From Veillonella infantium (GTDB lineage: Bacteria > Bacillota > Negativicutes > Veillonellales > Veillonellaceae): a DNA stretch of 64,000 bases. The notes below the pieces were generated by a model. The model did no database searches. It saw nothing but the letters and a program-made list of their open reading frames with translations, and was not told the origin of the DNA. The stretch is from NCBI RefSeq assembly GCF_002959895.1, contig NZ_PPDD01000012.1, positions 186,001-250,000 of the forward strand. Reading direction: 5' to 3'. Position numbers and translations under genes: made by a program. Of this stretch, positions 6,796 to 47,728 are shown in pieces. Positions within the stretch are counted from its first letter, which is position 1; each line of letters begins with the position of its first letter.

Positions 6796-7827
6796 ATGGT
6801 ACGACTTACCGACTATGTGACAAATGGGGGCTGTGCGTGTAAGATTGGTCCTCATATATTAAATCGTGTTTTGAAAGCAGTGACACCTGTTACAAATGAT
6901 CAAGTCTTAGCCGATATGACCGGTTCTGATGATGCAGGTGTATATAAAATTTCTGATACATTAGCATTGGTTCAAACATTAGACTTTTTTACACCTATGG
7001 TTAATGATCCTGTTTTGTTTGGTAAAATTGCCGCTGCGAATGCATTAAGCGATGTGTATGCTATGGGTGGAACTCCATTGACTGCCATGAACATCGTAGG
7101 CTTCCCAGTACCTCTTGTTGAGCAAGGAATCTTAACAGACGTGTTAAACGGTGCAGGCTCAATGGTAGCCGAATCTGGTGCGGCTATCGTAGGTGGCCAT
7201 AGCATAGAAAATAAAGAACCTATCTTTGGTATGTCTGTGACTGGGCAAGTGAATCCCAATTGTATTTGGAAAAACAAAGGGGCCCAAGTAGGGGATGTGT
7301 TGGTACTAACAAAACGTATTGGAACAGGTATCATGAACAATGCGTTGAAAGCAGATTTATTCCCTGTAGGTACAGAGCAAGCTATCACTAGTATGAGTAC
7401 TTTAAATAGAGTCGGTGCAGAGGTAGCTCACAACTTTACTGTGCATGCTTGTACTGATGTGACTGGTTTTAGCCTTATGGGGCACTCTGTAGAAATGGCT
7501 AGTGCCTCTGATGTGACAATACACATTAAGGCTTACGACATTCCTCTCTTTGATGATGTCATCGAAGCGGCTCAAATGGGGTTAGTACCAGCTGCGTCTT
7601 ATGGTAACCGCAAGGCTATAACTGACGTACAAGTAGATGAATCTTTAGATCCTGTATGGACGGACATTCTCTTTGATCCACAAACCTCGGGTGGTTTGCT
7701 GTTCTCTGTTCCTGCTAATGAAGGTGAGCAACTGGTAGAGGCGTTACATAAGGCTGGTATAGACTGTGCGACTATAGTAGGTACTGTTGAAAGCTTCTCT
7801 GGATTGGCTGTACGCGTAACAAGCTGA
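6796..7827 (+). CDS. selD: Selenide, water dikinase SelD
   Basis: This 343-residue enzyme makes selenophosphate from selenide and ATP. The N-terminal glycine-rich loop GGCACK carries the catalytic cysteine (TGT codon) and lysine. This is the Cys form, not the selenocysteine form. Other family signatures include DDAGVY, NALSDVYAMGG, VGGHSIE, CTDVTGFSLMGH and FDPQTSGGLLFS. A GGAGG site precedes the ATG at 6796. It is followed by yedF and a DUF3343 gene. No selA, selB or tRNA-Sec appears in the window, so the selenophosphate may serve selenouridine or a selenium cofactor. Confidence 0.95.
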   Translation: MVRLTDYVTNGGCACKIGPHILNRVLKAVTPVTNDQVLADMTGSDDAGVYKISDTLALVQTLDFFTPMVNDPVLFGKIAAANALSDVYAMGGTPLTAMNIVGFPVPLVEQGILTDVLNGAGSMVAESGAAIVGGHSIENKEPIFGMSVTGQVNPNCIWKNKGAQVGDVLVLTKRIGTGIMNNALKADLFPVGTEQAITSMSTLNRVGAEVAHNFTVHACTDVTGFSLMGHSVEMASASDVTIHIKAYDIPLFDDVIEAAQMGLVPAASYGNRKAITDVQVDESLDPVWTDILFDPQTSGGLLFSVPANEGEQLVEALHKAGIDCATIVGTVESFSGLAVRVTS

Positions 7828-7876
7828 TATTAGGAAGAATATAATATAGCCTTAAGGTGTTAAATTAAATATCATT

Positions 7877-7953
7877 AGCTGATAGCTGATAGCTGATAGC
7901 TGATAGCTGATAGCTGATAGCTGATAGCTGATAGCTGATAGCTGATAGCTGAT
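7877..7953. repeat. Eleven perfect tandem copies of the heptamer AGCTGAT
   Basis: Exactly eleven identical 7-bp units run without interruption in the selD-yedF intergenic region, ending about 40 bases before the yedF start. Such arrays change copy number by slippage. A unit gain or loss would shift spacing by seven bases but would not alter any reading frame here. Confidence 0.95.
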
Positions 7954-7992
7954 ACTTTTATAAAACATATAATGTATATAATATAGAGGTGC

Positions 7993-8592
7993 ATGATGAG
8001 CAATACAAAGGAATTAACTGTAGATGTACGTGGTAGCTTGTGTCCAAAGCCTGTTATTGAAACTAAGAAGGTAAGTGATGCGAATCCGAGTGATGTTATT
8101 ATTACTATCGTAGATAATGAGGTTAGTCGCGATAATGTAGAAAAATTCGGTAAGTCTCGTGGTTATGGGGTGGATATCCGACAAGATGGTAAGGATTTTT
8201 ACCTCACTATGACCCCTAATGCAAATCCAGTAGCAGAAATTTGTGAACCAATGAGCTATGGCAACCGTGTTATCTTGATGACAAAGGACTATCTTGGTGA
8301 AGGTAGTGAAGAGTTAGGCCGTAACCTAATGAAAACGTTCTGGGTGTGCATGGTTGAAGCAGATGTGAAGCCATCTAAGATCTATTTCATCAACAGCAGT
8401 GTGAAGATGGTAACAAATGATTCGGTTCATTTAGAAAATATTAAAAAATTAGCTGATGCAGGTGTTGAAATTGCAGCATGTGGCATTTGTCTTGATTTCT
8501 ATGGGGTAAAAGAAAATGTTGGCGTAGGTAGTATTACGAATATGTATTCTATTACTGATGCTATCCTTGGAGATAATATTGTTAAGTTATAA
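7993..8592 (+). CDS. yedF: Selenium metabolism protein YedF (TusA-like plus DsrE-like)
   Basis: The 199-residue protein has an N-terminal TusA/SirA-like domain (about residues 5-75) with the LCPKPVIETKK motif, whose cysteine carries sulfur or selenium in relatives. A C-terminal DsrE-like domain follows (about 95-199), with the cysteine motif AACGICLDFYG. This is the YedF family seen with SelD and YedE and linked to selenium use, but its reaction is not established. ATG codons at 7993 and 7996 are both possible; 7996 has the better spacing from GAGGT. A DUF3343 gene follows. Confidence 0.9.
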   Translation: MMSNTKELTVDVRGSLCPKPVIETKKVSDANPSDVIITIVDNEVSRDNVEKFGKSRGYGVDIRQDGKDFYLTMTPNANPVAEICEPMSYGNRVILMTKDYLGEGSEELGRNLMKTFWVCMVEADVKPSKIYFINSSVKMVTNDSVHLENIKKLADAGVEIAACGICLDFYGVKENVGVGSITNMYSITDAILGDNIVKL

Positions 8593-9974: not shown

Positions 9975-10685
9975 ATGAGCAAGTACGAAATAGAAAATGT
10001 AAAATTAACAGCCCCTAAATTGGATCGTAAAGATTTAGAATATGCTATGACATATCGTTATGCATGTAAAAAGTTTGATAGTACGAAGAAGATTTCTGAA
10101 GAAGATTGGAATGCTATTCTAGCAGCAGCTCGCTTGGCACCTACATCCCTTGGATTTGAGCCTTTTGAATTGCTAGTTATCCAAAATCCAGAAATTCGAG
10201 AAAAAATGAAAGCTCATGGTTGGGGCATTCATGCAGGCCTTGAAGCAAGTCATTTGGTGGTATTCTTAGCACGTAAAAAAGAGGACTTAGAGTTTGACTC
10301 CCCTTATGTACGTTACATTCAAGAAACAGTTAAGCAATTACCTGCAGAAATAGATGCAGCATATCGCGAAAAATATGCTCAATTTACTACAAGTGACTAT
10401 AAAACTTTTGAATCTGAACGTGCTGCCTTTGACTGGGCTTCAAAACAAGCATATATCGTTATGGCAAACATGATGACAATGGCCGCTTATGAAGGCTTAG
10501 ATTCCTGTCCATTAGAAGGCTTCAATCAAGATGACATGACAGCACTCTTAGGTGATGAACTTGGCCTTTTCGATACTAAACACTTTGGTATTGCTGTAAT
10601 GGCAGCTTTCGGCTACCGAGATGAAGAACCACATCGTAACAAAACACGTCGTACTTTAGATGAAATTGTAACAGTAGTTGAATAG
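9975..10685 (+). CDS. Nitroreductase-family NAD(P)H oxidoreductase
   Basis: The 236-residue protein has the FMN-binding nitroreductase fold. The N-terminal AMTYRYACKKFD and APTSLGFEPFE motifs bind FMN phosphate. The later ASKQAYIVMANMM, LEGFNQDDM and YRDEEPHRNKTRR segments are typical of the NfsB-like group. It should reduce quinones or nitroaromatics in the cytoplasm. The start at 9975 follows TGGAGGTG. It lies 39 bases after the HxlR gene and is probably controlled by it. Confidence 0.9.
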   Translation: MSKYEIENVKLTAPKLDRKDLEYAMTYRYACKKFDSTKKISEEDWNAILAAARLAPTSLGFEPFELLVIQNPEIREKMKAHGWGIHAGLEASHLVVFLARKKEDLEFDSPYVRYIQETVKQLPAEIDAAYREKYAQFTTSDYKTFESERAAFDWASKQAYIVMANMMTMAAYEGLDSCPLEGFNQDDMTALLGDELGLFDTKHFGIAVMAAFGYRDEEPHRNKTRRTLDEIVTVVE

Positions 10686-37507: not shown

Positions 37508-37556
37508 AGAGGTTCCTATTGGTCACCTATGTGACTATTAGGAACCTCTTTTTTAT
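37508..37556 (+). terminator. Terminator of the nfeD-floA operon
   Basis: AAGAGGTTCCTA pairs with TAGGAACCTCTT with an inner GTCAC/GTGAC stem, followed by TTTTATT. Confidence 0.9.
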
Positions 37557-37623
37557 TGTCTTTTTTTGATGGAACTTTCACAATAATAGGGAAAGGAGTT
37601 CGTCTACAAGGAAAGGTGATAGT

Positions 37624-38355
37624 ATGTATCGTAATGTGCGCGTTATACCTAAACAGTTACTGGAACAATTATATGTAGAGAAACAGTGGAGTGTTCGCGA
37701 GGTGGCAGAGTATTTTCAGTGTAGTGTAGATACTATTATGCGGCGTATGAAGGCATATGATATTGAGCGAAGACCGTTGAAGAAGGATATAAATATGGTT
37801 CATGTACAAGCTCTATATGAGTCAGGTAAGTGGTCATTACATTCTTTAGCGAAGCGTTATGATGTATCGATTACGACGATGGCAAGTCGGATGAAAGAAT
37901 ATGGACTAGCTTGTCAGCGTTCGACCAAGAATGTAGCTATCGATCCGGTGCGTATTTGTAGGGCCTATAAAAGTGGAAATACGTCAGACTCAATTGCACG
38001 CATGTATGGCATATCCCGATGGAAAGTACATCATGTATTGCGTCATATGGGAATGTGTACAACGCTTAAAGTAAAACCATCTCGAAAGGTGGACGAGATG
38101 GCTTACTTGTATATTCATCATCATATGAGTACGGATGATATAGGTTTAGCTTACGGTATACGAGGGTCAACAGTGGCCATGTATTTACGGGAGCAAGGTA
38201 TAGAAATTCGTTCAAATATATTAGAATTAGACGAAAATAGGATAAAAAACTTACGTGCTCAAGGGTATGGTGTTGCCAAAATTGCACAGATGATGGGCTG
38301 CTCTGCTTCTGCCGTAAGAAAACGACTAGCCATGAAAAAATATATCTCTCCTTGA
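37624..38355 (+). CDS. Protein of five tandem helix-turn-helix units
   Basis: The 243-residue protein is built almost only from five HTH repeats of about 45 residues. Their core helices are WSVREVAEYFQCSVDTIMRRM, WSLHSLAKRYDVSITTMASRM, TSDSIARMYGISRWKVHHVL, MSTDDIGLAYGIRGSTVAMYL and YGVAKIAQMMGCSASAVRKRL. Most units end with a short basic or polar tail. They resemble resolvase- or transposase-type HTH domains, but there is no catalytic or ligand domain. It should bind a long or repeated DNA target. The start at 37624 follows GAAAGGTGAT. The neighbours give no clue to its target. Confidence 0.7.
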   Translation: MYRNVRVIPKQLLEQLYVEKQWSVREVAEYFQCSVDTIMRRMKAYDIERRPLKKDINMVHVQALYESGKWSLHSLAKRYDVSITTMASRMKEYGLACQRSTKNVAIDPVRICRAYKSGNTSDSIARMYGISRWKVHHVLRHMGMCTTLKVKPSRKVDEMAYLYIHHHMSTDDIGLAYGIRGSTVAMYLREQGIEIRSNILELDENRIKNLRAQGYGVAKIAQMMGCSASAVRKRLAMKKYISP

Positions 38356-38409: not shown

Positions 38410-39348
38410 ATGCTTGAAATTATATCTGCTTTAATACCGTTTTTCTTACTTGGCATAGCGGCCGCTGGTTTATCCCGTGTATCTGGGGTGGCACTGTCGA
38501 TGATCATAGTACCAACACTATTGATTTGGGGAGCTAACGCGATTGATGTTATCGCCTTTATGCTGCTATTTGTGGTGTACAACAACTTTACAATGGAGAC
38601 ACAAGACGTTCGATTAGATTATAAAGACCTTGTATTATTCCCTAAATGGCGCTTATGTATTCCATTTATTTTGAGTTTAGTTGCTGCGTTCTTTGTACCA
38701 GCTGCAGGGATTGCCATCTTTATGGCCTGCTTTGTCCTAGAATTGTTAGCTACTGTATACAAACGCATTCCAGAAAATAAACGACCTCGCTTGCATCGCG
38801 TTATTGTTACATCCGTTTTAAGTGCTGTTGTAACTGCTGTAGGTGCTTATGCGGGCCCTAAAATTCCTAGTGAATACTATTTCATCTGTGCTGGTTTAGC
38901 CATCTTAATTATTACGGGCTTTGCTTGGTACGTAGGCAACCATCGAGATGCCTTTAGAGGTGCATGGGAAACAATTTGGGCTGACTTCAATTTGTTCTTG
39001 GGTATGTTTGGTGTAGAAGCCTCTTATTATCCAGCAGCGCTTACACGTTCCATTCCAAATCCAATGGACCGCATGTTACCAATGATTACCGTAGTAGGTG
39101 GATACGCTGGTCTTATGGTGGTATTTGGTATTTACAATATCTTCTCCATACCATCCTTGATTACCGCTATTGGTGCGGCTATTGGTATTCGTCTCTTTGG
39201 TATGTATGAGTTTCCACGTCATGGCAGCTTCTCCTTCTTAGCGATTGGTTTTGCTGTAGCTGCTGTTGTATGCTTGTATCTCGTATCTCCTACACCAGTA
39301 GGCTTTGATCATATTAATACATTAGTATCTCAACCAATCGGTCAATAA
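38410..39348 (+). CDS. TSUP (TauE/SafE)-family permease-like protein
   Basis: The 312-residue protein has about eight membrane helices and two glycine-rich internal repeats. The layout and the GLSRVSGVALSMIIVPTLLIWG start resemble the TSUP family that moves sulfite, sulfonates or other organic anions. The second half (YAGPKIPSEYYFICAGLAIL) diverges from well-studied members, so the family call is moderate and the substrate unknown. The start at 38410 follows GGGAGG. It stands alone between the HTH-array gene and a glycosylase gene. Confidence 0.6.
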   Translation: MLEIISALIPFFLLGIAAAGLSRVSGVALSMIIVPTLLIWGANAIDVIAFMLLFVVYNNFTMETQDVRLDYKDLVLFPKWRLCIPFILSLVAAFFVPAAGIAIFMACFVLELLATVYKRIPENKRPRLHRVIVTSVLSAVVTAVGAYAGPKIPSEYYFICAGLAILIITGFAWYVGNHRDAFRGAWETIWADFNLFLGMFGVEASYYPAALTRSIPNPMDRMLPMITVVGGYAGLMVVFGIYNIFSIPSLITAIGAAIGIRLFGMYEFPRHGSFSFLAIGFAVAAVVCLYLVSPTPVGFDHINTLVSQPIGQ

Positions 39349-47489: not shown

Positions 47490-47512
47490 TATATAGAGTT
47501 AAGATATGAGAC

Positions 47513-47547
47513 ATAAGATATAAAATATAAGATATAAGATATAAGAT
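47513..47547. repeat. Five-unit heptamer tandem repeat ATAAGAT
   Basis: Five 7-bp units run head to tail, four identical and the second reading ATAAAAT. They lie between mmuM and tRNA-Ser. Confidence 0.85.
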
Positions 47548-47606
47548 AATATATTATTTTGAAAGTATAAAAGAGGAGATAAGTATTGCCTCTCTTTAGA
47601 GAAATA

Positions 47607-47637: not shown

Positions 47638-47728
47638 TGGCGGAGAGACAGGGATTTGAACCCTGGGTACGGGATAACCGCACACATGATTTCCAATCAT
47701 GCTCCTTCAGCCGCTCGGACACCTCTCC
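47638..47728 (-). tRNA. tRNA-Ser (anticodon GGA)
   Basis: The 91-nt minus-strand gene folds as a class II tRNA. The 7-bp acceptor GGAGAGG pairs with TCTCTCC (one G-U) and is followed by discriminator G and an encoded CCA. The anticodon loop ATTGGAAAT in the stem CATG/CATG-type arm gives anticodon GGA, reading UCC and UCU. The long variable arm (GTGCGG...CCGTAC) is typical of serine tRNA. The T loop is TTCAAAT. Confidence 0.95.

Follow-up and report, generated by a model that had tools for sequence, protein, structure and literature searches.

Here we describe a protein of tandem helix-turn-helix (HTH) units encoded in a 64,000-nucleotide stretch of the Veillonella infantium genome (NCBI RefSeq assembly GCF_002959895.1, contig NZ_PPDD01000012.1, positions 186,001 to 250,000; the window), together with a 36-bp element upstream of its gene that recurs at natural-competence promoters and is a candidate operator for the protein. 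The features of the locus are collected in Table 1. Directly behind the HTH gene lies an open reading frame (ORF) for a membrane protein which we take to be TauE/SafE-like, and a homologue of this ORF occupies the same position in 28/28 loci of the Veillonella family. Named relatives of the locus are found in Veillonella sp. T11011-6, V. rogosae JCM 15642 and V. parvula SKV38, where the orthologue occupies roughly 430928-431656 of NZ_LR778174.1.

Table 1. Features of the tandem-HTH locus, in window coordinates
Feature	Position	Strand	Basis
Candidate operator, 36-bp imperfect palindrome GGTTCCTATTGGTCAC-CTAT-GTGACTATTAGGAACC	37511..37546	+	Upstream alignment, genome pattern search
Putative -35 box TTGTCT	37556..37561	+	9 bp past operator; consensus match only
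Putative -10 box CACAAT, 17-bp spacer	37579..37584	+	Consensus match only
Tandem-HTH protein, coding sequence, 243 amino acids	37624..38355	+	ATG start; ORF, Pfam matches, AlphaFold2
HTH unit 1, residues 10-44	37651..37755	+	AlphaFold2 helices
HTH unit 2, residues 58-92	37795..37899	+	AlphaFold2 helices
HTH unit 3, residues 108-141	37945..38046	+	AlphaFold2 helices
HTH unit 4, residues 152-190	38077..38193	+	AlphaFold2; DeoR/SorC HTH alignment
HTH unit 5, residues 204-236	38233..38331	+	AlphaFold2; Tn3 resolvase HTH alignment
Membrane protein gene, presumably TauE/SafE-like	38410..39348	+	Directly 3' of HTH gene; likely same operon

Architecture and distribution of the tandem-HTH protein

An AlphaFold2 model of the 243 residues, computed from an alignment of 4 close sequences (mean predicted local distance difference test score, pLDDT, 67; predicted template modelling score, pTM, 0.26), contains 15 helices which fall into five groups of three: residues 10-19/24-31/35-44, 58-66/72-78/83-92, 108-116/121-128/132-141, 152-166/170-177/181-190 and 204-212/217-224/228-236. 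The pLDDT is mostly 70-83 in the helical blocks and below 50 in the linkers, which are flexible, and the model does not predict the relative placement of the five units. The Pfam matches (best 25 of 45) are led by HTH_23 and HTH_7, the others being HTH families or short motif-length matches, and no full catalytic, sensory or membrane domain is among them. Resolvase and transposase HTH domains above the gathering threshold include PF02796 (44.3 vs 23.8 bits), PF13384 (46.4 vs 24.6) and PF13542 (35.2 vs 27.4). Modelled in this way, the ORF consists entirely of five three-helix HTH units. The original prediction, made from the sequence alone, had likewise read five HTH units with no other domain, and structure prediction returned five three-helix groups, not fewer.

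The same prediction had seen in the units a hint of origin from a transposase, which the structural alignments do not show. In VIA-align, where the rows mostly span single units, unit 5 aligned with the HTH of Tn3 resolvase (Z 6.8, root-mean-square deviation (rmsd) 2.0, 44 residues), but the best match of unit 4 was the DeoR/SorC HTH (Z 7.0, rmsd 1.7-1.8, 44 residues), so that the resemblance to recombinase HTHs appears generic. No catalytic recombinase or transposase domain is present among the Pfam and NCBIfam matches listed, and the five units occupy the 243 residues. PHROG matches to HNH endonucleases and a D5-like regulator were put down to common HTHs, and Foldseek gave no match to the model at E values up to 0.001. 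We also looked for a pseudo-palindromic order of units (1 with 5, 2 with 4) and did not find one; units 1 and 2 are the most alike pair.

One reading of such a chain is a protein like Cbp1, which would coat the repeats of clustered regularly interspaced short palindromic repeats (CRISPR) arrays or organise the nucleoid. NCBIfam NF040595 (Cbp1) is indeed the top NCBIfam match (E 1.5e-9), and Foldseek gave a weak match to the CRISPR repeat binding protein 2lvs (E 0.45). The NF040595 score of 37.9 bits falls far short of the cut-off (140), however, there are five units rather than three, no Cbp1 chain is among the VIA-align matches listed, and the predicted sites described below are few and lie in promoters (no search of CRISPR arrays was made). 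We regard this reading as very improbable.

A protein search recovered the tandem-HTH gene from 28/28 genomes of the Veillonella family and from 0/32 genomes representing three further families in the order. Across 250 genomes of the class, a profile search gave a single match beyond the family, weak and partial (G113, E 2.5e-9). In one genome (G023) there is a second match to the gene, which is partial and contains an internal stop. By length and alignment, the 28 proteins comprise 20 with five units, seven with six (the six genomes of a sister genus, g2, plus G004) and one with four (G001, 211 residues), so that homologues with other repeat counts, for which a search had been suggested earlier, do exist. 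When units were compared between genera g1 and g3, the best partner of each was the unit at the same position (5/5), with a weaker correspondence to g2. Because the units keep their identity across genera and the gene is present in 28/28 genomes, the five-unit array is unlikely to be a product of chance.

A 36-bp element at Veillonella promoters

Alignment of the regions upstream of ten Veillonella loci revealed one nearly invariant block, GGTTCCTATTGGTCAC-nnnn-GTGACTATTAGGAACC, amid diverged sequence. Over seven chosen Veillonella sequences, conservation is 95-96% in the arms, 54% in the loop, 59% in the upstream flank and 70% in the downstream 50 bp. The window's genome has exactly five copies of the left arm, all of them paired with the right arm. 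When two mismatches were allowed, the element was found in 12 of the 14 Veillonella genomes at 2-9 copies per genome, with no match for the reversed pattern as control; the genome of V. parvula SKV38 has four copies. Raising the limit to three mismatches over 61 genomes of the order added none to these 12. The HTH protein is most diverged (43% and 35% identity) in the two Veillonella genomes that lack the element. Repeats in the 64-kb window alone gave no convincing family of dispersed sites. Additionally, half-site matches with 2-3 mismatches in one genome (G000) lay inside ORFs in 14 of the 19 cases examined, the others being short palindromes or chance matches; short intergenic palindromes, GGTGACNATTNGTCACC (L068, L069, L073; G000 contigs C7 and C10), resemble the inner part of the element.

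That the protein could read a long asymmetric site had been one suggestion. A long site is supported by the candidate operators, which measure 36 bp in Veillonella and, flanks not included, 30-32 bp in the sister genus g3, but the 36-bp site is an imperfect palindrome rather than plainly asymmetric. A DNA-organising role, also proposed at the outset, finds no backing in 2-9 copies per genome.

The 54 copies in the 12 genomes stand upstream of the HTH gene (12), yraN (12) or an intact Hol_Tox ORF (15), or lie elsewhere (15), some of the last being cassettes which no longer have the toxin ORF. Both the HTH gene and yraN are marked in every one of the 12 element-bearing genomes. Behind yraN in the window's genome come an Mg-chelatase-like gene of the ComM type, dprA and what we recognise as topA, and domain search identified UPF0102, Mg_chelatase/ChlI/Mg_chelatase_C and DNA_processg_A at this locus. 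ComM and DprA are transformation proteins. The small ORFs behind the third class of copies, such as MSTYKVLSLMISFGILVATIIMAAK, match Hol_Tox (PF16935; 29.8 vs 23.3 bits); Hol_Tox peptides are putative type I toxin-like. In G000, three such cassettes lie behind the element on contig C8 (L078:8264-8480, 10210-10430 and 12036), two intact and one without the ORF, and in V. rogosae (L099) seven copies of the element fall within 14 kb.

To locate promoters, consensus -35/-10 pairs were scored at every distance of 0-19 bp from the element, by promoter class and with a maximum of 12. The best distance was 9 bp in each class (mean 7.8 for HTH, 7.4 for yraN and 9.0 for Hol_Tox), although for yraN a distance of 15 was nearly as good (7.2); a mixed class peaked at 6.4, also at 9 bp. 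A single HTH promoter of the 12 (L003) has a distance of 10, and five of the 12 carry the -10 variant CATAAT. The -35 boxes are mostly weak. Provided that these predicted promoters are real, the centre of the palindrome lies ~62 bp upstream of the predicted start site, which matches the class I position (near -61), where class I activators bind. Given this place of the candidate operator, close to the -35 box on its upstream side and centred near -62, we favour activation.

The same protein and operator could instead act in repression, keeping its own gene and the competence genes shut until a signal releases them. Negative autoregulation is frequent in small HTH proteins, and three g3 genomes (G020, G024, G026) have extra half-sites between operator and -35. 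Against this, the element stops 9 bp before the -35 box and does not overlap the promoter in any of the three Veillonella classes, and the weakness of most -35 boxes also speaks against a repressor, so that we consider repression unlikely.

Alternatively, the element could be unrelated to the HTH protein and represent a mobile repeat, or a bidirectional terminator present in dispersed copies. Its long stem is followed by a T-rich tract, some copies lie at gene ends, and copies move with the Hol_Tox cassette. An ordinary terminator would not be expected to show 95-96% conservation in the arms and 54% in the loop; the 9-bp distance is constant over three unrelated promoter classes; some copies sit between ORFs that diverge, where a terminator would have no obvious use; and different elements in g2 and g3 mark the same or functionally related genes. 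A terminator or repeat independent of the protein is therefore a decidedly improbable account.

Elements in two sister genera

In the six genomes of g2, which encode the six-unit protein, the HTH and yraN promoters share a word unlike that of Veillonella, and in both a second conserved block lies at the same distance from it. A pattern taken from these promoters, CACTCYTAMCAGTSWG, was run over whole genomes with one mismatch allowed and returned 21 sites in the six genomes, as against 1 for the reversed control. All 21 are directly upstream of four genes: HTH (5), yraN (6), comGA (6) and a PD-(D/E)XK nuclease-family gene (4); the HTH promoter site of G017 has 2 mismatches to the pattern. All ten sites which had no part in making the pattern fall at comGA (6) or the PD-(D/E)XK gene (4). 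The target families were confirmed as UPF0102, Mg-chelatase/ComM type, DprA, T2SSE and PDDEXK_2. The comGA-type nucleoside triphosphatase (NTPase) gene, with a second traffic NTPase behind it, corresponds to the first gene of the V. parvula gspE/pilT-type locus.

Among the seven genomes of g3, six HTH promoters carry a 30-32 bp element plus flanks, with a consensus near ACTGACAGTGCGTATGCGCACCAATGGTATG. A single-word search was noisy, with 17 of the 29 loci examined within long ORFs, and we therefore used a held-out, sequence-only model trained on the six HTH promoters alone and applied to the full sequence of eight genomes, in each of which 150 of the 244-436 first-look candidates were scored. 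Among the candidates scored, the five held-out hits with E<0.01 were all comEA (G015) or comGA (G027, G018, G015, G024). Five more had E values of 0.01-0.1, namely comEA of G027 and G018, a second HTH-promoter site in G018 and two positions inside ORFs. comGA and comEA of G020 gave weaker hits to the model (0.48 and 0.6), comGA of G026 escaped the model but was found with a looser pattern, and G022 and G016 had no hits. Domain assignments for the targets were T2SSE (comGA) and HHH_3+SLBB (comEA). Upstream of a D12-class adenine methyltransferase gene, a g3-type word was seen in one genome only (G027 contig C2, L162) and was not counted.

Compared by eye, the half-sites of the three genera have in common a core near CTRAYAGT (CCTAATAGT, CCTAACAGT, ACTGACAGT), a pattern compatible with a single protein family whose sites have drifted. 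Association with promoters cannot separate a regulator from its target, and the elements could also be operators of another competence regulator, with the HTH gene merely one of its targets. The HTH gene is, however, the only evident DNA-binding regulator adjoining the elements in all three genera and is confined to the family, and its promoter carries the element wherever an element is known, for which autoregulation is the simplest reading. We hold a separate regulator to be improbable.

A predicted lineage-specific competence regulator

We propose, with a probability of roughly two in three, that the protein is an autoregulated, lineage-specific regulator of natural competence, probably an activator, whose tandem HTHs bind one long operator. 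What the analysis shows is the five HTHs, their conservation, the promoter elements and the presence of these at competence genes; that the protein binds the element, activates transcription and affects transformation is inferred. The five units would line up in a row along one ~36-bp operator, and the bound protein would activate transcription from just upstream of the -35 box in the class I manner, its own gene being positively autoregulated. The genes under control would be yraN-comM-dprA in Veillonella and g2, comGA in g2 and g3, and comEA in g3; operator and protein would have diverged together between genera while the targets stayed in competence, and the Hol_Tox cassette in Veillonella would have gained the same promoter. 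The elements themselves do mark competence promoters (yraN-comM-dprA in 12/12 Veillonella and 6/6 g2 genomes, comGA in 6/6 g2 genomes, comGA and comEA in g3), as putative operators of this protein.

Several observations weigh against this proposal. Five different HTHs arranged head to tail would not obviously call for a palindromic site; two molecules may bind it, or a single one may read across both arms. The element folds as a strong terminator-like hairpin ahead of the T-rich stretch, and may double as a terminator. No clear target could be assigned to 15 of the 54 Veillonella copies, and the element is not at the comGA promoter in that genus. There, the comGA leader is conserved with a sequence of its own (L198-L202, L205, L206) and had no Rfam match at the gathering threshold in five loci, L208 of G001 among them; it is possibly another layer of control. 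In g3 the yraN promoters lack the g3 motif, and G001, G004, G016 and G022 yielded no shared motif. Pairwise tests of HTH against comGA promoters were significant in only G015 and G018 of six g3 genomes; the comparison with shuffles was too weak in G020, G024 and G026, and these results leave out the truncated loci L131 (G001) and L136 (G027) and do not count the yraN promoter of G001.

More tentatively, we envisage a lineage-specific master regulator of competence in which the tandem HTHs measure off, like a ruler, a single operator of 36 to 40 bp that changes together with the five- or six-unit array across genera. In Veillonella, mobile holin-like toxin cassettes would have been wired into the competence promoter, such that competence and a self-targeting membrane peptide would be switched on together. 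Veillonella are abundant oral and gut bacteria which are naturally transformable, and the HTH gene offers one candidate regulator that can be deleted and whose predicted target promoters are specified. As close relatives differ in having 4, 5 or 6 units, operators can also be compared with the number of HTHs, so that a tandem-HTH code becomes testable.

Elsewhere in the window, a perfect heptanucleotide array, TAGCTGA x 11.3 (7876-7954), which could vary in length, lies between ORFs that we take to be selD-like (6796-7827) and SirA/YedF-like (7993-8592). A 16-bp tandem array of 4.8 copies (649-725) separates an ATP-binding cassette (ABC) ATPase ORF from a permease ORF, and a 7-bp array, TAAGATA x 7 (47500-47548), is on the 3' side of a tRNA-Ser gene (47638-47728, minus strand).

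ComK, ComX/SigX, ComR and Sxy/TfoX are dedicated regulators of DNA uptake and are often autoregulated. The role proposed here is like theirs, whereas the architecture is unrelated, and none of these families is among the 23 NCBIfam matches of the tandem-HTH protein. A title and abstract search of the open-access literature, with subscription papers and preprints outside its range, returned no regulator of competence in Veillonella or the Negativicutes, nor any mutant of the HTH gene. In V. parvula, the gspE/comGA locus is required for transformation, which its deletion abolished (PMC5397411); the counterpart of this gspE/pilT-type locus carries the motif in g2 and g3, though not in Veillonella. 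The accessible part of that text treats regulation in general terms only, names no transcription regulator and lacks the words sigma, comEA, dprA and comGA.

The bipartite HTH domains of Tc3, Mos1 and Pax resemble the protein in that several small HTHs of three helices are set in tandem on a single DNA site, but they consist of two HTHs on a transposase or eukaryotic factor, whereas here five or six stand alone. We know of no other stand-alone competence regulator with five or six HTHs. The nearest parallel is with Cbp1 and Cbp2 of the Crenarchaeota, which bind CRISPR repeats and likewise consist of duplicated HTH units only, placed along one site; the three HTHs of Cbp1 are reported to lie in order along the DNA (PMC10883916). 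Those proteins have three or two units, in contrast to the five described here, for which the predicted targets are competence promoters (CRISPR arrays were outside our searches). Both tandem-HTH proteins, as exemplified by Cbp1, and competence regulators are already known; the combination of the two is, as far as we are aware, new.
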